Source: Chitinophagaceae bacterium
GTDB lineage: Bacteria; Bacteroidota; Bacteroidia; Chitinophagales; Chitinophagaceae
Direction: 5' to 3'
NCBI GenBank assembly: GCA_947379895.1
Contig: CANCPA010000002.1
Span: forward strand, 1-64,000
DNA length: 64,000 nucleotides
Shown piece after piece: positions 11,951 through 62,366 of this stretch. The position numbers were made by a program, and so were the translations under genes. Within the stretch, counting starts at the first letter, position 1, and each line of letters begins with the position of its first letter. The notes under the pieces were generated by a model. It was given only the letters and a program-made list of their open reading frames with translations. It was not told where the DNA came from and made no database searches.

Positions 11951-12367
11951 ATGAAATTATTTGTGGGTGGACTATCTGCCAATTTAGATGATGTGGATTT
12001 AAAAGAAATGTTTGAACTATATGGCGATGTTCAATCTGCTATGATAGTTAAAGATAAGGCAACAGGTAAAGGAAAGGGCTTTGGCTTTTTAGATATGCCA
12101 AATGCTGCCGAAGCAAAGGAAGCAATGGATTTATTAGATGGTGTTGCTATTTTTGGAAAGAAGATTGCTGTTAAGCCTGCAGAAGAACAACCAAGAAAAA
12201 CATCTAGCGATTATCGGTCAAACGATAGGGATAATAGATTTAATCGTGCTGATTCACGAAATTCAGATTCAAGAGGAGGGTATGATAGGAATTCAGATTC
12301 AAGAGGAGGGTATGATAGGAATTCAAGAAGTTCTGAACCAAGAAATACAGATAGAAGAAGATATTAG
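11951..12367 (+). CDS. RRM-domain RNA-binding protein with RG-rich tail
   Basis: RNP motifs KLFVGGLS and GKGFGFLDM; tail SDSRGGYDRNSDSRGGYDRNS. Confidence 0.92.
   Translation: MKLFVGGLSANLDDVDLKEMFELYGDVQSAMIVKDKATGKGKGFGFLDMPNAAEAKEAMDLLDGVAIFGKKIAVKPAEEQPRKTSSDYRSNDRDNRFNRADSRNSDSRGGYDRNSDSRGGYDRNSRSSEPRNTDRRRY
12260..12319 (+). repeat. 30-bp perfect tandem duplication inside the RRM gene
   Basis: AATTCAGATTCAAGAGGAGGGTATGATAGG at 12260-12289 and 12290-12319. Confidence 0.95.
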
Positions 12368-14678: not shown

Positions 14679-15446
14679 ATGTACAAGGCACTTTCTACTT
14701 CAATAACTTTAGGGGGCTATAAGCGAGCATATTACAAGTGGTTTAGTCATCATTTGCAGCGTGATATGGAATTACTTGTTTTTGGTGAATCTGGAAGACC
14801 TGTTATCTTTTTTCCAACAAGAACTGCAAGGTTTTTTGACTATGAAGATTGGATGGTTGTTGATGCTTTTAAGGACAAGTTGATTGCGGGAGAATTACAA
14901 TTGTTTTGTATAGATAGTGCCGACCAACAAAGTTTTTATAATAAGGCAATCACTCCTATGCAGCGAATACTTAAGCATAATCATTTTGAGCAATATATAC
15001 TTCAAGAATTAATGCCTTTTATACGGCAAAAAAATAGCAATCCAAACCTTATTTCTGCAGGTTGTAGTTTGGGTGGATATCATGCAGTTAATATTGCATT
15101 AAGGTATCCAATTCTCTTTAAAAAAGTTGTCGCAATGAGTGGTAGATACGACTTAACGTTAAGGCTTGCCTATTTTGATGATTTGTTTGAAGGGTATATG
15201 GATGATCAAATTTATAGTCATACGCCTACTAAATTCTTACCCAATATATTTAATCCACATAGTCTTGACTTACTAAGGAAGTTAGATATAACTATTGTGA
15301 TTGGAGAAGATGACGCATTTTTAAATAACAATCATCTTTTACATCAACAACTTACAGATAAGCAAATTGCTCATAAATTTTATGTTTGGAAAGGAGAAGC
15401 ACATAAAGCACAATATTGGATACAAATGGCAAAGCTTTATTTTTAA
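14679..15446 (+). CDS. Esterase family alpha/beta hydrolase
   Basis: SAGCSLGGYHAVNIALRYP nucleophile elbow; late His in WKGEAHKAQYW. Confidence 0.8.
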   Translation: MYKALSTSITLGGYKRAYYKWFSHHLQRDMELLVFGESGRPVIFFPTRTARFFDYEDWMVVDAFKDKLIAGELQLFCIDSADQQSFYNKAITPMQRILKHNHFEQYILQELMPFIRQKNSNPNLISAGCSLGGYHAVNIALRYPILFKKVVAMSGRYDLTLRLAYFDDLFEGYMDDQIYSHTPTKFLPNIFNPHSLDLLRKLDITIVIGEDDAFLNNNHLLHQQLTDKQIAHKFYVWKGEAHKAQYWIQMAKLYF

Positions 15447-29657: not shown

Positions 29658-29716
29658 TCCTAACTATCTAGTAGGTAAAACTTTTAGTGTAAATAGGGTA
29701 ATTTACAAGGGTGCCG

Positions 29717-29926
29717 TTTAACTGATAGGTTTTGTAATTTAACCCTTCAGTTTTGTCGCTTAACCCTTCAGTTTTGTCGCTTAACCCTTCAGTTTTATCG
29801 TTTAACTTATAGGTTTTGTAATTTAACTCATGAGTTGTATGATTTAACCTATAGGTTTTATAGCTTAACCTACAGGTTAAATCGCTTAACTTATAAGTTG
29901 CGTCGCTTAACTCATGAGTTTTTTTA
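29717..29926. repeat. 21-bp palindromic tandem array B (10 units of exactly 21 bp)
   Basis: Units TTTAACTGATAGGTTTTGTAA, CTTAACCCTTCAGTTTTGTCG, TTTAACTCATGAGTTGTATGA, TTTAACCTATAGGTTTTATAG, CTTAACTTATAAGTTGCGTCG etc.; core AACYYATRRGTT. Confidence 0.93.
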
Positions 29927-31904: not shown

Positions 31905-34900
31905 ATGAAACGTATAGTTTTACTATTAACAATTGTTACTTGTCTTTTTTCTACAAGTTTTGCTCAAACAGGATCGTTATATTTTATAAACGGTTCTGCT
32001 CAATCAATTACTCTTTGTCAGAATTCAGCAGGAGTTGTACTTGATAATTATTTGATAACTTATGACAAGGCAAATGGGTTAACCCTTACTTATACTTTAT
32101 TAACTACACCTGCACATGGCACAATTCATGGTTTTCCTGGAATTAGTTCATCAAATGGAGGTGTAGCTTCTCCTTCTGGATTTACTTATAATCCTACGAC
32201 AGGGTATAGTGGGTCAGATGTTTTTGAAGTACAAGTGACAGATGGTGTTAATACTGCAAAAAGCACTTTTACGGTTGCAATAAATTCATTACCTACAATT
32301 GCACCTATCACAGGAGGTACTTCTCTTTGTGGTGCTGGAACTAAAACTTTATCAGATAATACAACAGGTGGTATTTGGACAAGTTCCAATACATTTTCTT
32401 CAATCATTGATAGTTTGACTGGTGTGGTAACCGGTGTTTCTGCTGGTCAATCAACAATAGGATATACAGTTACGAGTGCAAATGGTTGTACAAGTACTGT
32501 AACTACTACTTTTACTATTAGTGGTAATCCATTAGTAAGTGGAATAACAGGTACTACGAATGTTTGTGTGGGTTCAACTACAACTTTGGCTGATGTTACT
32601 GCAAATGGTGTTTGGTCGAGTAATAATACGGCAATTGCAACTGTTAGTGGTGGAGTTGTAACAGGGGTAAGTGCAGGAAATGCAACCATACAATATAAAG
32701 TAACAAATATTTACGGCTGTAGTACAACTGCAAGTAGGAATGTAACAGTTAATGCTATTCCTGTAGTCGCACCTATTACTAGTACAACAGGAACAAATAT
32801 TTGTGGTGGTGGAACAATTACTTTAAGGAATGCAACAGCTCGTGGTACATGGTCTAGTACGAACAATAGCATTGCTACTGTAAATGCATTAGGAGTTGTT
32901 ACAGGAGTATCAGGTGGGATTGATACTATAATTTATACTGTTTCTAATGGCGGTTGTTCTGCTTCAAGTTCAATAGCAATAACCGTTGGAGTTACTCCAG
33001 TTATTGGAGCTATAAGTGGAGTAGCTACTATTTGTAACAGGACTACCTACCAATTTTCAGATACCACTAAAGGTGGAAAATGGACAAGTAGCAACCCATT
33101 AGTTGCATCAATCGATTCATCTACTGGTTTAGTAACTGCAATAGCAGCAGGAAATATAACAATAACTTACACCGTTGTTAGTGCAACAGGTTGTTCTGCT
33201 AGTGTTACTGCTGCCTTGAGGGTTGTTAATATTCCGAGTGTAGGTACTATTACTGGTGCAAATTATGTATGTATTGGATCTACTTCTACCTTAGTTGATG
33301 GTACCGCCGGTGGAGTATGGTCAAGTACAAATACTCAACTTGCTACTATTGATAATTCAGGACTTGTAACTGGTTTGGCAACAGGTGTTGATACTATTTA
33401 TTATACTGTTACAAATGCTAGTGGATGTTCAAATTCTGCTAGATTAATAATTACTGTTGGAGCTAGTGTGGCTGTTCCAGGCATCGGGGGGGCCTCAAAT
33501 GTTTGTTTAAATTCTACATTAACTTTAACAAATAAGACAACAGGAGGTTCTTGGAGTAGTAGTGACCCCACAATTGCGTTTGTTGATAATTCGGGTCTTA
33601 TTACACCCATTAATCCTGGTGTTGTTACCATTTCATATACAGTAGGTAATGGGGCTTGTACAGGTAGTGCGATTAAAAATATTATTGTTAGTGATGTGCC
33701 TACTGTAGATAATAATAACTTAACAGCCTTGGCATTATGTACTACAGATTCTGCAATTCTTACAAATACTACTTCTGGAGGACTTTGGACTTCAAATACA
33801 TCTGCAGCCACTGTTACAAATGATGGAATAGTAAAGGGGATTTCTACTGGTAGTGGTACAATCACATATACCGTAACAAATAGTTATGGATGTTTTGCCA
33901 CTTCAACAACTGGCGTAACTGTAAATGCTAAGCCAAATGCATTCACAATAACAGGCTCAAACGCTACTTGTGTAAATAATATTATTAACTTAAAAACTAC
34001 TGGGACTGGTGGATTATGGTCAAGTAGTAACACTAAAGTAGCGACTGTTAACGTTAATGGAACGGTATCAGGTAAAAGTTCTGGTACTGCATCAATTTAT
34101 TATACTATCACAAATGGTAATGGTTGTGCGAGGGTAGATTCAATGGTGGTTACTATCGCAAAATCTCTGACAGTAGCACCAATTGTTGGAAATACTAATC
34201 TTTGTTTAGGTACTGCTACAACATTCACTGACAGTACTATTAATAGTAGTGGAACTCAAGGAACTTGGGCGCTTACTTTAGGAACAGGTTCTGCATCTGT
34301 AAATGCTTCTGGAGTTGTAACTCCTGTTGCATTAGGTACAGCAACATTAAGTTATACTGTAAATAATGGATCTGGTTGTACGGGTTCTGTTTCACAAGAT
34401 ATTGTAATTAATAGTGCTCCGACGGTAGCTGCAATTGCAGGACCTACTAATGTTTGTGCAGGCGCTACTATTACCCTAACCGATGCAACTGTGGGTGGTG
34501 TTTGGTCAACAAATAATGCAACAATTGCTATTATTGACTCAAATGGTGTATTGACTGGTATCACAGGAGCTGCCGGAGGTGGTGGCGGAGGCGCTAATAG
34601 GGTAGTTGTTACCTATGCTTATACAGACAATATTGGATGTAAAGCTAGTAAGACATACAACGTAAATGTACGAACAGGTCCTGGAGCAGGATTTACTACA
34701 GGTGTAACAAATCTTTGTGTTGGAAGTACTTCAACATTTACAAATAATACACAAGGGGGTACTTGGGCTAGTGATAAACCATCTGTTGCAACTGTCGATA
34801 ATGCAGGTTTAGTAACAGGCGTTTCAGCTGGTTCTGTAGTAATACAATATATAGTTAGTAATGGTAATGGATGTCCTAGTGTAGCAAACAGTAAGTTAAC

Positions 34901-37900
34901 TGTAGATGCAGTTCCTGTAGTTGCTAAAACTACTGGTATCGATACGTCTTTGTGTGTGGGTCAGGTTACTCAATTATTCAATGCATCTAGTATCCCAACT
35001 GGTGGAACTGCGGTTTGGAGTAGCAGTAATACTGCGATTGCTAAAGTTAGTGCAACAGGAGTTGTAACTGCAGTTTCTGCAGGTACTGCCAATATAATTT
35101 ATACCGTTACCAATGCTGCAGTGGGTGGCGGAATTACACCTTGTAATAGTGCAACTTCTATTTCAATAACAGTTTCAGCTAATCCTGTAGTTTCATCGGT
35201 TAAAGCTTCGAAGTCGAATGTTTGTGTGGGAAGTAATATTACTGTCACAGACGCTACTGCCGGAGGAACTTGGGGCATTAATGATACAACATTGGCAACA
35301 ATTGATCCTTCAACAGGTGTTGTAACAGGTGTTTCAAGTGGAAGTATTATTGTTACCTATACAGTAGTTAAGAATGGTTGTACTACTACAGTATTTGGCA
35401 ATGGTACCGTAGTTGCTTTGCCTGAAGTTGCTGCAATTGTTGGAAATAGTACCCTATGTCAAGGATTTGCTACGCTATTGACAGATACTACAACCGGAGG
35501 AGTTTGGTCTACTTCTGATGCAAGTGTTGCTAACGTGAGTTCTAATGGAAATGTAACAACAGGTGCTTCAGGATCTGCAGTAATCAGTTATACTGTTACA
35601 AATCCTTATGGTTGTGTTAAGTCTGTTACTGATACAATTACAGTTAATCCGTTACCAATTGTTACGCCGATAATTGGAAATAGTTCACTGTGTATTGGTA
35701 GTACATATACAGTAACTGATTCGACATCTAGCGGGGTATGGTTGATGAGTAATACAGTTAATGCAACCATTAATTCAAATGGTATTGTGACTCCATTAGT
35801 AACAGGAGTAGATACAGTTATTTACAGTGTTACCAATGTGTATGGTTGTAAAACAACAGTGTCCTTGCCTGTTTCAGTCAATCCTACTCCTATAGCTTCA
35901 TTTACAATAAATAAATCATCACAATGTTTAAGTGATAACTACTTTATATTTACGAATACAAGTACTATCAGTTCAGGTTCAATTACTCCTACTTGGTCAT
36001 TAGGTGGTACTGTTTCGAATTCAATTAATCCTACAAATGTGTTTTCAGTTGCGGGTATTGATTCTGTAATTTTAACCGAGACAAGTAATGCGGGTTGTAT
36101 TAGTACTGCTTCACAAGTTGTTACTGTTAATCCACAACCTGTTGTTGCATTTGCTATTAATGATAGTAGTCAATGTTTAACTGGAAACAGTTTTACTTTT
36201 ACAAATAATTCGTCAATTAGTACTGGAACACAAGCATATAGCTGGAATTTTGGTGACGGTTCAAGTTCAGTTACTACAACTAGTCCAACATACGCTTATG
36301 TAAAGGCAGGAACTTATAAAGTTCAATTAACTGCAACAAGTAATAATGGTTGTATTGATAGTCTTTCTCAAACTGTTATGCTAACTGCAAATGTGGTACC
36401 ATCTGTTTCGATAAAGGCTAATACTACATCGATTTGTACAGGTTCGAATGTTGTATTTACAGCAACACCTGTAAATGGAGGGTCTAGTCCATATTATCAA
36501 TGGTATAAAAATGGATTAAGTGTAGGAAGCAATTCAAGTACCTATAATGACAATTTGTTAGTTAATGGTGATGCAATTTCTTGTGTATTAGCTAGTAGTG
36601 TAAAATGTTTAACTGCACCGATTGCAACTAGTAACAGTATCGTAGTTTCAGTTTCACAATATTCTACTCCTTCTGTAACTATATCATCATCTGCTGATAC
36701 TATTTGTGCAGGCACAAGTATAACATTTACTGCAGAACCTGTTAATGGGGGAGGAACTCCTATTTATCAGTGGCAGGTGAATGGAGTAAATGCTGGAACA
36801 AATTCTTCAACATTTACTACAAATACGCTAAATGATAAAAGTGTTGTTACTTGTAACCTTACAAGTAGTGTTACTTGTGTTACATCTCGTACAATTTCAA
36901 GTAATGCAATTACAATTACAGTACATTCATTATCTACATCAACAACAAATGCAAGTATATGTGCAGGAGCATCTTATACATTTAATGGCAATGTATATAC
37001 CACTTCAGGTACTTATATTTCACATCTAACTAATGTTTATGGTTGTGATAGTGCAGCAACTTTAGTCTTGAATGTTAAAGCGACTTCTGCTTCAACTACA
37101 AAAGCATCTATTTGTTTGGGAGGATCATATTTGTTTAATGGTACTACTTACACAACTGCAGGCACTTACACTGCACATTTAACAAATGCTGTAGGTTGTG
37201 ATAGTACTGCTACTTTATTATTAACAGTGAATCAGCCTAGTACCTCAACAACAAATGAAAGTATCTGTAATGGAAGTTCGTACACATTTAATGGTACTGT
37301 TTATACAAAAGCAGGTACTTACACCGCGCATTTAACAAATTCTGTTGGTTGTGACAGTGCCGCTACATTAATTCTTACCGTTAAATCGTTAAGTACAAGT
37401 ACTACATCTGCTAGCATTTGTGCTAATGCTAGTTATCCATTTAATGGAACGGTATACACTACTGCAGGTACCTATACAGCTCATTTGATAAATGCAGTTG
37501 GTTGTGATAGTGCTGCAACTCTAATACTAACTGTTAAGTCATTAAGTACTAGTACAACGGTTGCAAGTATTTGTGCAGGTGGTAATTATACTTTTAATGG
37601 AACTGTTTATACTACAGCGGGTACATACACGGCTCATTTGACAAATGCAGTTGGTTGTGATAGCGCTGCTACCTTAATACTTTCTGTAAAATCATTAAGT
37701 TCAAGTACTACTAATGCGAGTATTTGTGCCGATGGAAGTTATACTTTCAATGGTAATACATATAAAAGTGCTGGAACTTACGTTGCACATCTAACAAATG
37801 CAGTTGGTTGTGATAGTACTGCCACTTTAGTATTAACAATTAAATCGTTGAGTACAAGTACCACAACTGCAAGTATTTGTGCAGGAAATAGCTATACATT

Positions 37901-40727
37901 TAATGGGACTACTTATACGAGTGCAGGCAGCTATACAGCTCATCTTACAAATAGTGTTGGTTGTGATAGTGCTGCTACTTTGATATTAAGTGTTAATCAA
38001 CCTTCAACTTCTATCACAATTGCAAGTATCTGTGCTGGTTCTAGCTTCACCTTTAATGGTCGTACTTATACAAGTGCTGGTAGCTATGATGCACACCTTA
38101 CAAATGCGGTAGGTTGTGATAGTGCAGCTACATTAATTTTGACTGTAAAAGCTACTAGCAGTAGTATTACAAATGTGAGTATCTGTGCAGGTGATAGCTA
38201 CACTTTTAATGGAAGTTCTTATACTAGTTCGGGTAGCTACATTGCACATCTTACAAATTCAGTAGGTTGTGATAGTGCTGCTACTTTGATTTTAACTGTT
38301 AAATCAACAAGCTCAAGCACAACGAATGCAAGTATTTGTTCTGGAGGATATACATTTAATGGCACTACCTATACAACTTCTGGCACTTACACTGCTCATC
38401 TGACAAATAGTGTGGGTTGTGATAGTACAGCAACTTTGGTATTGTCAGTGAAATACTTGAGTACAAGTATCACAAAAGCAAGTATTTGTGAAGGAACTAG
38501 CTATAAGTTTAATGGAATTAAATATACAAGTGCAGGTAGTTATATCGCACACCTTACAAATAGTGTAGGTTGTGATAGTGCTGCAACTTTGATATTAACT
38601 GTAAATCAACCTTCAACTTCTACCACAAATGCAAGCATCTGTGCTGGTTCAAGCTACACCTTTAATGGAAGTGTCTATACAGGTGCAGGTAGCTATGTTG
38701 CTCATTTAACAAATGCAGTAGGTTGTGATAGTGCTGCAACTTTAATATTGACTGTAAAAGCTACAAGTACAAGTATTACAAATGCGAGTATCTGTGCTGG
38801 TTCTAGCTACAGCTTTAACGGAAGTACTTACACAAGTACAGGTAGTTACGTAGCGCACCTTACAAATAGTTTAGGTTGTGATAGTGCTGCAACATTAAAT
38901 TTAACTGTAAAAGAATTGAGTTCTAGTATTACAAATGCTAGTATTTGTTCTGGAAGTTCTTACTCATTTAATGGAAATGTTTATACAACTTCAGGAACTT
39001 ATGTTTCACATTTAACTAATTCCGTAGGATGTGATAGTTCGGCTACTTTAAATTTAACTGTAAAGTCAACTAGTACGAGTACAACAAATGCAAATATTTG
39101 TTCTGGCGTTGCTTATGACTTTAATGGTACTTCCTATACAAAAGCGGGTACTTATGTTGCGCATTTAACGAATAGTGTGGGTTGTGATAGTGCTGCAACT
39201 TTAATATTGACAGTCACTTTACCTGTTACTCCAACCTTAACACTTTCTGCGACTGCAACTACGATTACTGTTGGAACTAGTGTAACATTTACAGCTAGAC
39301 CTACAAATAGTGGTGGTGCTGCTATTTATCAATGGTATAAGAATGGTGCTTTAGTTACTGGTTTTTGGAATACATACACTACATCTAGTTTGAATAACAA
39401 CGATACTATTAGCTGTGTACTCACAAGCAGTATGAGTTGTGTAACTAATGTAACTGCAAAATCAAATGCCATTGTAATGACAGTTAATTACTTGTATACT
39501 ATTAATGGTACAATTAAAAGTCCTTTAGGTACAGTAATTCCTACTGTTACTGTTGGTTTAAATGGTAATCAATCAATTATTACCGATTTAAATGGTAACT
39601 ATAGTTTCACTGTTTCTGCTGACAGTAGTTTTATTGTAATGCCGACAAAATCAAATGATGTTGTAGTGGCAAATGGAGTAAATGGTACAGATATTAGTTT
39701 AGTACAAAGTCATATATTGAAGAAAGTAATTTTGAATTCTCCTTATAAGTTGATTGCAGCAGATGTAAACAATGATGGTGTCGTAAATGGTACAGACATT
39801 GCCTTGATTAAGTCTTTGATTTTAAAACGTATCAATAAATTTAGCGGTAACCGTTTGTGGGCATTTGTGGATAGTAGTTATTCTTTCCCTACACCTACTA
39901 AGCCATTCCCATATAATGATAGTATTAGTGTTGCAAATATCAGGGCTAATCAAGTAAGTCAAAATTTTGTTGGTGTCAAATTAGGTGATGTAAATTATGA
40001 TTGGAATTCATCAATTTTAGGTGCAAATCTTGCAAGTTCACCAATTGAGTTGTTCAATGATAAGATTGCAGTAAGTCCTTCAGCTTCAGAAGTTCGTGTT
40101 CCTGTTAAGGTTAAGAATTTCAAGAACATCATGGGCATGCAGTACACGTTGAACTACAATAGTGCTGCGCTAGAGTTGAAATCTATTGATAAAAATAGCA
40201 TGGGTATTGATTATAATACTGATTTTGCTACAGAAGGAAAGCTACCATTCCTTTGGGTAGATGTAACAAATAATGCTAAAACTTTGGAGGATGGCACAAC
40301 TTTGTTCGAGTTAGTATTTAACAAGAAGGGAAATTTAGCAAATGAAGACATTAGTCTCACTTCTGACATTACTTCTGCTAGTGCATTTGATGGAAACTAT
40401 GGCGCTGTATGTATTGTGAAGTCAGGCGGAACTATCAGTGATGCTGCTACAATTGTAAGTGCTGATAATTGGAATATACTTCCTAATCCTACAAAGGACG
40501 GCTTAGTAAAAGTAACTTTGTCACTTGCAAAAAGCAAGAAAGTACAATTTGAATTGACTTCATTAGATGGTAAATTATTATTACAACAGTCGAATGATTT
40601 TCCAATAGGAAATAGTTCAATTGTTCTAGACTTGCAAAGGCAAGTAAGACTTGCACCTGGAACCTACTACTTAAAAGCAGAAGGAGTGGATGGTGTTAAT
40701 ACTAAACAGGTATTGTTTATTAAATAG
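31905..40727 (+). CDS. Giant secreted multi-domain protein: Big2-like Ig repeats, PKD-like domain, 15 x about 51-aa Cys-containing repeats, dockerin-like segment, cohesin-like domain, T9SS-type C-terminus
   Basis: Signal peptide MKRIVLLLTIVTCLFSTSFAQ; repeated GGVWSSNNTAIATV..GVVTGVSAG; repeated SICAGxSYTFNGTxYTxAGxYxAHLTNxVGCDSAATLILTV; DVNNDGVVNGTDIALIKSLIL; C-term WNILPNPTKDGLVKVTLSL...VLFIK. Confidence 0.9.
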   Translation: MKRIVLLLTIVTCLFSTSFAQTGSLYFINGSAQSITLCQNSAGVVLDNYLITYDKANGLTLTYTLLTTPAHGTIHGFPGISSSNGGVASPSGFTYNPTTGYSGSDVFEVQVTDGVNTAKSTFTVAINSLPTIAPITGGTSLCGAGTKTLSDNTTGGIWTSSNTFSSIIDSLTGVVTGVSAGQSTIGYTVTSANGCTSTVTTTFTISGNPLVSGITGTTNVCVGSTTTLADVTANGVWSSNNTAIATVSGGVVTGVSAGNATIQYKVTNIYGCSTTASRNVTVNAIPVVAPITSTTGTNICGGGTITLRNATARGTWSSTNNSIATVNALGVVTGVSGGIDTIIYTVSNGGCSASSSIAITVGVTPVIGAISGVATICNRTTYQFSDTTKGGKWTSSNPLVASIDSSTGLVTAIAAGNITITYTVVSATGCSASVTAALRVVNIPSVGTITGANYVCIGSTSTLVDGTAGGVWSSTNTQLATIDNSGLVTGLATGVDTIYYTVTNASGCSNSARLIITVGASVAVPGIGGASNVCLNSTLTLTNKTTGGSWSSSDPTIAFVDNSGLITPINPGVVTISYTVGNGACTGSAIKNIIVSDVPTVDNNNLTALALCTTDSAILTNTTSGGLWTSNTSAATVTNDGIVKGISTGSGTITYTVTNSYGCFATSTTGVTVNAKPNAFTITGSNATCVNNIINLKTTGTGGLWSSSNTKVATVNVNGTVSGKSSGTASIYYTITNGNGCARVDSMVVTIAKSLTVAPIVGNTNLCLGTATTFTDSTINSSGTQGTWALTLGTGSASVNASGVVTPVALGTATLSYTVNNGSGCTGSVSQDIVINSAPTVAAIAGPTNVCAGATITLTDATVGGVWSTNNATIAIIDSNGVLTGITGAAGGGGGGANRVVVTYAYTDNIGCKASKTYNVNVRTGPGAGFTTGVTNLCVGSTSTFTNNTQGGTWASDKPSVATVDNAGLVTGVSAGSVVIQYIVSNGNGCPSVANSKLTVDAVPVVAKTTGIDTSLCVGQVTQLFNASSIPTGGTAVWSSSNTAIAKVSATGVVTAVSAGTANIIYTVTNAAVGGGITPCNSATSISITVSANPVVSSVKASKSNVCVGSNITVTDATAGGTWGINDTTLATIDPSTGVVTGVSSGSIIVTYTVVKNGCTTTVFGNGTVVALPEVAAIVGNSTLCQGFATLLTDTTTGGVWSTSDASVANVSSNGNVTTGASGSAVISYTVTNPYGCVKSVTDTITVNPLPIVTPIIGNSSLCIGSTYTVTDSTSSGVWLMSNTVNATINSNGIVTPLVTGVDTVIYSVTNVYGCKTTVSLPVSVNPTPIASFTINKSSQCLSDNYFIFTNTSTISSGSITPTWSLGGTVSNSINPTNVFSVAGIDSVILTETSNAGCISTASQVVTVNPQPVVAFAINDSSQCLTGNSFTFTNNSSISTGTQAYSWNFGDGSSSVTTTSPTYAYVKAGTYKVQLTATSNNGCIDSLSQTVMLTANVVPSVSIKANTTSICTGSNVVFTATPVNGGSSPYYQWYKNGLSVGSNSSTYNDNLLVNGDAISCVLASSVKCLTAPIATSNSIVVSVSQYSTPSVTISSSADTICAGTSITFTAEPVNGGGTPIYQWQVNGVNAGTNSSTFTTNTLNDKSVVTCNLTSSVTCVTSRTISSNAITITVHSLSTSTTNASICAGASYTFNGNVYTTSGTYISHLTNVYGCDSAATLVLNVKATSASTTKASICLGGSYLFNGTTYTTAGTYTAHLTNAVGCDSTATLLLTVNQPSTSTTNESICNGSSYTFNGTVYTKAGTYTAHLTNSVGCDSAATLILTVKSLSTSTTSASICANASYPFNGTVYTTAGTYTAHLINAVGCDSAATLILTVKSLSTSTTVASICAGGNYTFNGTVYTTAGTYTAHLTNAVGCDSAATLILSVKSLSSSTTNASICADGSYTFNGNTYKSAGTYVAHLTNAVGCDSTATLVLTIKSLSTSTTTASICAGNSYTFNGTTYTSAGSYTAHLTNSVGCDSAATLILSVNQPSTSITIASICAGSSFTFNGRTYTSAGSYDAHLTNAVGCDSAATLILTVKATSSSITNVSICAGDSYTFNGSSYTSSGSYIAHLTNSVGCDSAATLILTVKSTSSSTTNASICSGGYTFNGTTYTTSGTYTAHLTNSVGCDSTATLVLSVKYLSTSITKASICEGTSYKFNGIKYTSAGSYIAHLTNSVGCDSAATLILTVNQPSTSTTNASICAGSSYTFNGSVYTGAGSYVAHLTNAVGCDSAATLILTVKATSTSITNASICAGSSYSFNGSTYTSTGSYVAHLTNSLGCDSAATLNLTVKELSSSITNASICSGSSYSFNGNVYTTSGTYVSHLTNSVGCDSSATLNLTVKSTSTSTTNANICSGVAYDFNGTSYTKAGTYVAHLTNSVGCDSAATLILTVTLPVTPTLTLSATATTITVGTSVTFTARPTNSGGAAIYQWYKNGALVTGFWNTYTTSSLNNNDTISCVLTSSMSCVTNVTAKSNAIVMTVNYLYTINGTIKSPLGTVIPTVTVGLNGNQSIITDLNGNYSFTVSADSSFIVMPTKSNDVVVANGVNGTDISLVQSHILKKVILNSPYKLIAADVNNDGVVNGTDIALIKSLILKRINKFSGNRLWAFVDSSYSFPTPTKPFPYNDSISVANIRANQVSQNFVGVKLGDVNYDWNSSILGANLASSPIELFNDKIAVSPSASEVRVPVKVKNFKNIMGMQYTLNYNSAALELKSIDKNSMGIDYNTDFATEGKLPFLWVDVTNNAKTLEDGTTLFELVFNKKGNLANEDISLTSDITSASAFDGNYGAVCIVKSGGTISDAATIVSADNWNILPNPTKDGLVKVTLSLAKSKKVQFELTSLDGKLLLQQSNDFPIGNSSIVLDLQRQVRLAPGTYYLKAEGVDGVNTKQVLFIK
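36925..39220 (+). repeat. 15 tandem about 153-bp coding repeats within the giant gene
   Basis: 15 occurrences of the GCDSxATL motif, about 51 residues apart. Confidence 0.9.
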
Positions 40728-46008: not shown

Positions 46009-46238
46009 CAAGCTGATGCGGCAGCCGTTCCCGTACGTGCTGCAACCACGCAAGTACGTGCTGCAATTGCTCAAGTACTTCCTTTTACCACTCCCGCACG
46101 TGCGGCAGCCACTTCCGTAAGTACGGCAACGACAAAAGCACTTGCTGCAACCGTACAAAGATTCTTTTTGTGACTCAAGCACTTGCTTTAGTCACTCCCG
46201 TACGTGCGGCAGTCTCTCAAGCACGTGCTTTAGTGGCT
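46009..46238. repeat. 21-bp palindromic tandem array C (11 units, one of 20 bp), GC-rich
   Basis: Units CCCGTACGTGCTGCAACCACG, CAAGTACGTGCTGCAATTGCT, CCCGCACGTGCGGCAGCCACT, CAAGCACGTGCTTTAGTGGCT etc.; core NNGYACGTRCNN. Confidence 0.93.
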
Positions 46239-59701: not shown

Positions 59702-60910
59702 ATGACTCTTTCAGGAAAAACATTCCATCTTAAAGGTAAAGTACAACATTATGCATGGGGTGGTACCAATTATATACCACAATTACTTGGAATAGACAAT
59801 AAGGACCATAAACCTTGTGCAGAATATTGGATGGGTGCTCATCCTTCGGCTTCATCAGTAATTTCCGATGGTGAAAATTCTATCTCACTTAACGAATATA
59901 TTGTAAATAATCCCTCCGAAACCATTACTGACAAAGTATTCAATCGGTTTGGTGAATTACCTTATCTTTTTAAGATTTTAGATGTAAAAGAAATGTTGTC
60001 TATTCAAGTACATCCTACCAAAATTGAGGCAGAAAAAGGATTCGACGCTGAAGAAGCGGCAGGTATTCCTATAAATGCACCTCATAGAAACTATAAGGAT
60101 AGAAATCATAAGCCTGAAGTCATGATTGCACTGAGTGATTTTTGGCTATTGCATGGCTTTAAATCGTTTTTAAAAATAGAACAGACACTTTTAGATGTCA
60201 AGGAGTTTAATGTATTGATTGCCCTCTTCAGAGCGGATGGATTGAAAGGGCTTTATAAGTTTGTGATGGAAATGGAACAATTTGATATTGATTCATTATT
60301 TACTTCTTTAGTGGAACGAGAAGTTAGGAGAAAAAATAATAACGAATTAACTAAGGCTGAACCGGGATGGTGGGTCGCTAAATTGTTTGAAGATGGACAG
60401 CCTATTAAAAATATTGATAGAGGCATATTCTCTATTTACTTTTTTAATATTGTTAATGCAAAGCCTGGTCAAGCCGTGTTTCAGGGTGCAGGTGTTCCAC
60501 ATGCCTATTTAGAGGGACAAAACGTAGAGTTAATGGCTAATAGCGATAATGTATTACGTGGGGGATTGACACCTAAGCATATAGATGTGCCTGAATTGAT
60601 GAAGCATACTTCCTTTGAACCTGTAATACCCAATGTAATGCAAGGAGATGACTTAGGCAATTGCGAAAAATTATATCCTTGCCCTGTACCTGATTTTGGT
60701 ATTAAGAAAATTAGTTTACATAATAACAGTCATGAATCAGTGGCAAATTCTTTAGAAATAATTATTGCTATAGAAGGAGGGGCTGTGGTAAATAGTAGTA
60801 GAAATACAGTCATTAAACAAGGAGAAGCAATTGTGTTTTTACCGGGAGAGGAATATAAAATTGAATCATCTGGTAATGCAGTTTTATATAAGGCGTTTGT
60901 GCCTGTGTAG
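59702..60910 (+). CDS. manA: Mannose-6-phosphate isomerase, class I
   Basis: LKGKVQHYAWGGTNYIPQLLG, AEYWMGAHPSA, LSIQVHPTK, GVPHAYLEGQNVELMANSDNVLRGGLTPKHID. Confidence 0.94.
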   Translation: MTLSGKTFHLKGKVQHYAWGGTNYIPQLLGIDNKDHKPCAEYWMGAHPSASSVISDGENSISLNEYIVNNPSETITDKVFNRFGELPYLFKILDVKEMLSIQVHPTKIEAEKGFDAEEAAGIPINAPHRNYKDRNHKPEVMIALSDFWLLHGFKSFLKIEQTLLDVKEFNVLIALFRADGLKGLYKFVMEMEQFDIDSLFTSLVEREVRRKNNNELTKAEPGWWVAKLFEDGQPIKNIDRGIFSIYFFNIVNAKPGQAVFQGAGVPHAYLEGQNVELMANSDNVLRGGLTPKHIDVPELMKHTSFEPVIPNVMQGDDLGNCEKLYPCPVPDFGIKKISLHNNSHESVANSLEIIIAIEGGAVVNSSRNTVIKQGEAIVFLPGEEYKIESSGNAVLYKAFVPV

Positions 60911-61193
60911 GTTGCAAATTCAGGTTACGGTATTTAGGTAGCAGGTTACTATTAAATCGGTAAAGATTTCAGGTAATTTATTAGTATTCATTTAATAATT
61001 TGATTTGTGAGTTGAAATAAAGTTGGATAATTGTGAGCCAAGTAATTAGTAACCTGTAACTATTAGCTTGAATCCTGCATTTAGTTACTTAATTTAATTA
61101 GGGGATATCATACAATATGTTTACTTCTCAAGTTTTTATTAGAAGTTTTTGTTTAGTTATTTTGAGAATAAATAGAGGAATATAGTATTTCAT

Positions 61194-61403
61194 CAAAAGT
61201 CTAGTACTTTGGCCAAACTTTATAGAGTTTTGACCCAAAAGTCTAGTACTTTGGCCCAACTTTATAGAGTTTTGAGCCAAAAGTCTAGTACTTTAGCCCA
61301 AAAGTCTAGAGTTTTGACCCAAAAGACTAGAACTTTGGCTCAAAAGACTAGAGTTTTGGCCTAAAACTCTAGAACTTTGACTCAAAAGACTAGAACTTTG
61401 AAC
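61194..61403. repeat. 21-bp palindromic tandem array D (10 units of exactly 21 bp)
   Basis: Units CAAAAGTCTAGTACTTTGGCC, AAACTTTATAGAGTTTTGACC, CAACTTTATAGAGTTTTGAGC, CAAAAGACTAGAACTTTGGCT etc. Confidence 0.93.
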
Positions 61404-61796
61404 TTACTTCTAATACAGTTGGCTTTAAGTCATATAGTTTTGAATAAATACCAAGTGAATTTAAGAGATGACTATATTTTGCCGAACTATTCATATATAC
61501 ATTAACAGAAATAGTCATATTGCCGCTATTTAATCCTCAAACTTATTATTGACTTAATGAAGTTTATAAATTTCAAGTGTTTGTTGGTTTATCAACAAAT
61601 TTTTATTTAGCATCTTTATAAGTACAAATTTATTTCTTATTTAAAAATGAAAATCATTGAATAATTAACAAGAAAAGCTAATTAGTAGTTTCAAAATAGT
61701 TTGGATTTCATTCATTTATCCCCATCATTTAATTATCTGAACAAAAAACTTTTTTCTAAAATAGATTTACTCCTATTTTTGTTTCAAATATTAAAA

Positions 61797-62366
61797 ATGA
61801 AGTTGAACTACAAGCTGTTATTATTCTCTGTTCTGTTGGTTTTAGTCAGTACCCTTTCTAAACTGTTCTTTGCCTCTAAATTAGAATGGTCAGGATTTTC
61901 TCCAATAGTGGCAATTGCACTTTTTGCAGGAATGATGATAAAGGATAAATCTACCTCTTTTTTATTGCCTCTTATTTCATTATTCTTCAGTGATATCATC
62001 ATTGAAGTATTATTCCGATTCAAATTGTTCCCATTTGAAGGTTTATATTCCTACCAACTTCTAAATTACTTATTATTACTGTGTACTACGTTAATAGGTT
62101 GGATTTTAAAGGGAAAGCAAATCAATAGAATATTGACAGCTTCATTTGTTGCTCCGACTCTATTTTTTCTTTTATCAAATATTAGTGTTTGGGCTTTTTC
62201 AACTCCACTAATGTATCCACAGACAAGTGCAGGTTTACTTGAATGTTTGATTGCAGGCATTCCCTTTTATGGTCACTCATTGATGGCGACATTTATTTTT
62301 GTTCCTATTTTATTGGTTTCATATAACTATATCACCAATAAATCTAACAGTTTATTGATGTCCTAA
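61797..62366 (+). CDS. DUF6580-like integral membrane protein
   Basis: SGFSPIVAIALFAGMMIKDKSTSFLLPLISLFFSDIIIEVLF; likely start MKLNYKLLL at 61797. Confidence 0.65.
   Translation: MKLNYKLLLFSVLLVLVSTLSKLFFASKLEWSGFSPIVAIALFAGMMIKDKSTSFLLPLISLFFSDIIIEVLFRFKLFPFEGLYSYQLLNYLLLLCTTLIGWILKGKQINRILTASFVAPTLFFLLSNISVWAFSTPLMYPQTSAGLLECLIAGIPFYGHSLMATFIFVPILLVSYNYITNKSNSLLMS

Follow-up and report, generated by a model that had tools for sequence, protein, structure and literature searches.

Array D, a run of dyadic 21-bp units in the 64,000-nucleotide stretch of freshwater Chitinophagaceae DNA analysed here (the window), belongs to a genus-wide class of intergenic arrays that place a dyad of about 12–18 bp every 21 bp with hardly any indels; the architecture of this class may be selected as a platform for a dimeric protein, a reading to which we assign a probability of roughly 0.4. 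Across the class we observed a common period, dyads, intergenic placement without preference for gene orientation, turnover of sequence and two-sided changes at one orthologous locus, which suggests that the layout of the arrays rather than their letters is being maintained. We place just short of an even chance the broader statement that the genus carries an element class, of the order of 100–200 per genome, that is defined by architecture: each locus would have its own palindrome, keep its symmetry by paired changes and homogenise it across the array, and the whole would work as a structural element or as a platform for phased binding.

Table 1 Repeat arrays of the window and the genes around array D
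Feature	Position in the window	Strand	Remarks
Array B	29715..29920	.	21-bp units, dyad AACY-N4-RGTT, GTCGC/GCGAC spacer
Further 21-bp array, probably array C of the sequence-only reading	46022..46234	.	GTACGTGC/GCACGTGC dyads
Type I phosphomannose isomerase gene, upstream of array D	59702..60910	+	Pfam PF20511, E 2.9e-34; linkage conserved
Lineage-specific spacer of ~0.8 kb containing array D	60911..61700	.	gene pair nearly touching in relatives
Array D	61194..61403	.	ten 21-bp units, head-to-tail, contiguous
DUF6580 protein gene, downstream of array D	61701..62366	+	Pfam PF20221, E 6.2e-36

An earlier sequence-only reading had described array D as ten exact 21-bp units. The ten units stand, and they are free of indels, but the exactness does not stand: units match at 67% at a lag of 21 bp and at 87% at a lag of 42 bp, making them imperfect copies, and the final three bases of unit 10 diverge. 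TRF reported the array at 61194-61400/61401, with 9.9 copies at period 21 (score 183) and 5.0 copies at period 42 (87% matches, 0% indels, score 234). The match is higher at the longer lag because two types, CAAAAGTCTAGTACTTTGGCC and (C/A)AACTTTATAGAGTTTTGA(C/G)C, take turns over the first four units, which gives a 42-bp period and confirms the alternation described from sequence. The unit consists of an 18-bp dyad core, CAAA-N3-CTAG-N3-TTTG, and a 3-bp spacer (GCC/ACC-like). The CTAG/TATAG-centred dyads that had also been proposed withstood comparison with column-permuted controls (z 4.4, 0/300; z 3.8 in a second run), with 4–8 of 9 pairs per unit, and when array D is aligned to its reverse complement, 70% of positions match over 176 bp. 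The symmetries AAAGT-N5-ACTTT and AACT-N6-AGTT are likewise both present, but their axes lie 1.5 bp apart in the unit and the axis common to the units is the CTAG/TATAG centre. The layout is not CRISPR-like, the units being contiguous, the spacer only 3 bp and unique spacers lacking; head-to-tail imperfect units of 10–100 bp are a feature that array D shares with intergenic minisatellites or VNTRs.

The genes on either side of array D are same-strand neighbours across ~80 Chitinophagaceae and related genomes, and the DUF6580 gene is present in 33 of 41 genomes. The extrapolated gap between the two genes in the ~80 genomes is nearly always −62 to +136 bp (one is 423 bp), and a gap of 797 bp occurs only in the genome that carries array D. 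Both flanks of the array within this extra DNA are single-copy in their own genome, and we detected no real matches to them in 12 genus genomes. The repeat family has one further array in its own genome (C281:4839-5052) and is unmatched in the 298 other Chitinophagaceae genomes searched; none of the related genomes compared has an array at the D locus. Because the wide gap is found only here, the flanks are single-copy and the family is without match in the 298 genomes, array D is a recent lineage-specific gain, an element that splits an otherwise tight gene pair. The insertion in which it sits is species-specific, with boundaries that are not sharply defined.

MITE-like mobile elements carrying a minisatellite, like BrickBuilt in Porphyromonas gingivalis, are a very improbable source of the arrays. 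One family does resemble such an element in its flanks: the AGCAAAT...TTTGCT family, MITE-like with a 42-bp unit, lies at L033:13851-14161, L076:6853-7298, L069:17763-17982 and L047:7424-7726, where its arrays share leader and tail flanks, and it occurs at several more places in the same genome and at two in G009. Most sampled arrays, however, share no flanks, unit sequences vary between loci and, for array D, the single-copy flanks led us to reject a MITE with common flanks. A search for REP-associated transposases showed that the genome has five Y1_Tnp genes or gene fragments, and gave no link between these and the arrays.

Within the window, a scan of periods 15–30 singled out 21 as the one strong period, present at arrays B and D and more weakly at array C. 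Arrays B and D are alike in design, as had been pointed out from sequence, array B having 9–10 units of a different sequence. Its family also occurs on contigs C1 and C30 of the same genome and in congeneric species, and the array probably corresponding to C is of the same family as L052:5538-5786 in its own genome. As separate observations, a 2940-aa ORF at 31905-40727 contains ~13.6 imperfect 153-bp (51-residue) repeats at 37134-39206, with a similar 153-bp period at L072:15705-20000, and a perfect 30-bp repeat (2.2 copies, 12260-12325) lies within the ORF at 11951-12367.

The genome-wide periodicity scan that the sequence-only reading had proposed was strongly positive for 21 bp. With heptamer arrays separated out, a scan of periods 12–60 bp over 1.30 Mb of the genome's long contigs found 23 arrays at P=21 and 25 at P=42, and almost none at other non-heptamer periods. 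A laxer threshold gave ~39 period-21/42 arrays in this 1.3 Mb, which extrapolates to an estimated ~150 arrays per genome; as a whole-genome rate drawn from such a sample this may be an underestimate, given that some of the arrays are close to the ends of contigs. TRF applied to the genus sample (3+ copies) returned 33 arrays at 21, 18 at 42 and 5 at 63, periods of 84 and 126 also being present, four arrays at 41 and a remainder made up mostly of heptamers and protein repeats; 55 of 73 period-21/42 TRF arrays had 0% indels. A 41-bp instead of a 42-bp period was seen in a minority (L043:4229-4502, L050:9563-9713, L072:730-934, L106:12415-12673 and L107:12318-12536). Periods 21 and 42 also dominate in genomes G006, G004, G007, G011 and G010, and so in most sampled species of the genus, periods in G012 being mainly heptamers; other genera hold few 21-bp arrays (148 kb of four genomes and more distant PMI loci). 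The heptamer arrays (GTTTAAG/GTTTAGG-like) are a separate repeat type, seen at L029:12292-12495 and 14970-15139, at several PMI loci and also in other Chitinophagaceae. We found no description of the 21-bp array class in the open literature searched.

Dyad symmetry is widespread in the class. Of 77 pure 21/42 arrays, 51 had a dyad at z>2 against column permutation, and the remaining third had no significant dyad. Mean pairing in the 51 dyadic arrays was 0.55–0.77 at 1–7 bp off the axis and 0.29–0.38 beyond, the central pair being the least symmetric inner position (0.47). Inter-unit identity, which played no part in choosing the axis since this was chosen for symmetry, peaked in the arms at 0.71–0.79 (1–6 bp off the axis), and the spacer had the lowest values (0.57–0.65). 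Where 42-bp units contain two different dyads, these are 21 bp apart. The orientation of flanking genes (tan/div/conv 34/17/7, with approximate gene calls and labels) was like that found when every intergenic gap of 250+ bp was counted (154/73/31), and on the same approximate calls we set aside promoters and terminators, the latter being unlikely. Seven-residue coding repeats come to mind, as 21 is a multiple of three and many arrays can be read through in an open frame, but we consider them hardly credible: codon periodicity of variation was detected in 1 of 77 arrays, stop-free frames were near expectation (109 versus 97), and no ATG, GTG or TTG start lies ahead of array D in its open frame.

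Many arrays, array D among them, do not keep their position, and orthologous loci show how the sequences turn over. Between genes for a Por_Secre_tail protein and a sulfatase, a 21-bp array with a GCGAC-type spacer is in register in four species, with the palindromes AACCGATGGGTT and AACTGATAAGTT in G000, CCGAGACCTCGG in G006, CCAAGGTCTTGG in G001 and a CCGAGGCCTCGG-like palindrome in G004. The 29 distinct units at this locus have two-sided changes in all seven pairs, with a covariation score of 0.507 against 0.202 when shuffled (0/500) and 0.01–0.19 with partners slid; because the units of one array are related, this score does not count independent events. Conservation is higher in the GCGACAA spacer than in the dyad, and the number of units differs among species (about 6, 8 and 9). 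Upstream of purL, G004 and G006 have unrelated arrays although their PurL proteins are 97% identical; on the one side compared, homology between the two reaches as far as the edge of the array in G004, whereas in G006 it stops 78 bp before the array. Elsewhere these species do have an array in common, at 88% identity. Loss of the period or dyads in relatives had been named as grounds for doubting the repeat. Taken alone, the D locus gives this outcome in that the array is absent there, but at other orthologous loci the period and dyads persist despite sequence change.

The covarying stem and kept spacer at the four-species locus are also what transcribed arrays might show, the units serving as tandem RNA stem-loops in mRNA processing, stability or attenuation; in the superfamily of array B these would have a G-CGA-C loop and covarying stems. 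The GCGAC motif of this superfamily points with transcription at 6/6 informative loci between co-directional genes (two orthologous loci each entered once; L095 mixed). Sense-strand GU mismatches outnumber AC mismatches in arrays between co-directional genes (68 versus 35; divergent control, 21 versus 27), but per array this excess was not significant (Wilcoxon p 0.066) and came largely from within one superfamily. Moreover, folding energy is equal for sense and antisense after composition correction (p 0.55), arrays are equally frequent between divergent genes, the window has no Rfam match at the gathering score and many stems would measure only 4–6 bp. We therefore regard RNA stem-loops as an unlikely explanation of the arrays at large, with an RNA role for the B superfamily being possible. 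Two of these observations also bear on the selected protein platform: a sequence-specific dimer site would be expected to keep the dyad better than the spacer, opposite to what is seen, and the sense-pointing GCGAC motif hints at strand-specific action, which speaks against a platform at the DNA level. The third of arrays without a significant dyad and the often unconserved positions likewise count against it.

Under the preferred reading, selection acts on the architecture of the arrays. A step of 21 bp is two turns of B-DNA, which would put the dyads on one face of the helix, where they could form a multi-site platform for a putative dimeric DNA-binding protein, nucleoid-associated or insulator-like, with a loose or locus-tuned sequence preference. 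Tandem duplication would spread and homogenise units within an array, so that a new palindrome could take over the whole of it. A mutational process could, however, give the same picture. Minisatellites without function may generate themselves, slippage expanding the 21-bp units and template switching during replication copying arm onto arm such that palindromes arise and persist, and we tentatively grant this a substantial chance. It better explains the fast turnover, namely the absence of array D from all relatives, the unrelated purL arrays in two species and the varying unit number; the indifference of the arrays to gene orientation agrees with it, as does the poor symmetry of the central pair, which a looped hairpin template would leave. 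It leaves unexplained the single period of 21 bp with its multiples, the rarity of indels and the persistence of an array at one locus in four species, for which a selected platform is the better explanation. The two readings explain the data almost equally well, and the function of the arrays is putative.

Repeat classes are mostly recognised by shared sequence, and arrays that differ at every locus would be missed in this way. If their architecture is selected, nature has run the same experiment on phase, symmetry and number, apart from sequence, dozens of times independently in these genomes; if they are mutational, they reveal that replication can prefer a step of 21 bp and copy palindromes. 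Strain comparison would test selection against mutation directly.

Several known systems resemble the 21-bp arrays in part. Bacterial VNTRs and minisatellites share tandem imperfect units whose number varies between species, but in general lack the one dominating period, the rare indels, the dyad symmetry and the compensatory change at an orthologous locus. Plasmid iteron and centromere arrays consist of tandem protein-binding sites about two helical turns apart, with one array per replicon and a single cognate protein. Their spacing is similar, whereas the present class comprises >100 chromosomal arrays of different sequences, with a putative cognate protein. Direct repeats of the TAACTGA heptamer, known from Beggiatoaceae, Cyanobacteria and some Bacteroidetes, usually lie close upstream of starts (PMC4679880). 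They too are abundant, short and intergenic and form long arrays in some Bacteroidetes, but are built of one 7-bp sequence and have no dyads. REP/BIME elements, GTAG- and CGTC-tagged, are 20–40 bp long and form one family per genome in many copies (PMC3733652). They are likewise short intergenic palindromes in many copies, but lack the strict head-to-tail 21-bp arrays and the locus-specific palindromes of the present class, and the family of array D, at two places in its own genome, is not dispersed as they are. The nearest published relative is BrickBuilt of P. gingivalis, a minisatellite/MITE with intergenic 23-nt units arranged head-to-tail at many genomic places, up to 22.8 units, and a single sequence family with leader, tail and terminal inverted repeats; 22- and 41-nt repeats are also reported from this species (PMC4596501). 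BrickBuilt and the 21-bp arrays have in common their occurrence in Bacteroidota and their intergenic head-to-tail units of ~20 bp at many places per genome, and they differ in that the 21-bp arrays have a unit that changes by locus, a period of 21/42 and dyadic units, with array D having no repeated flanks.
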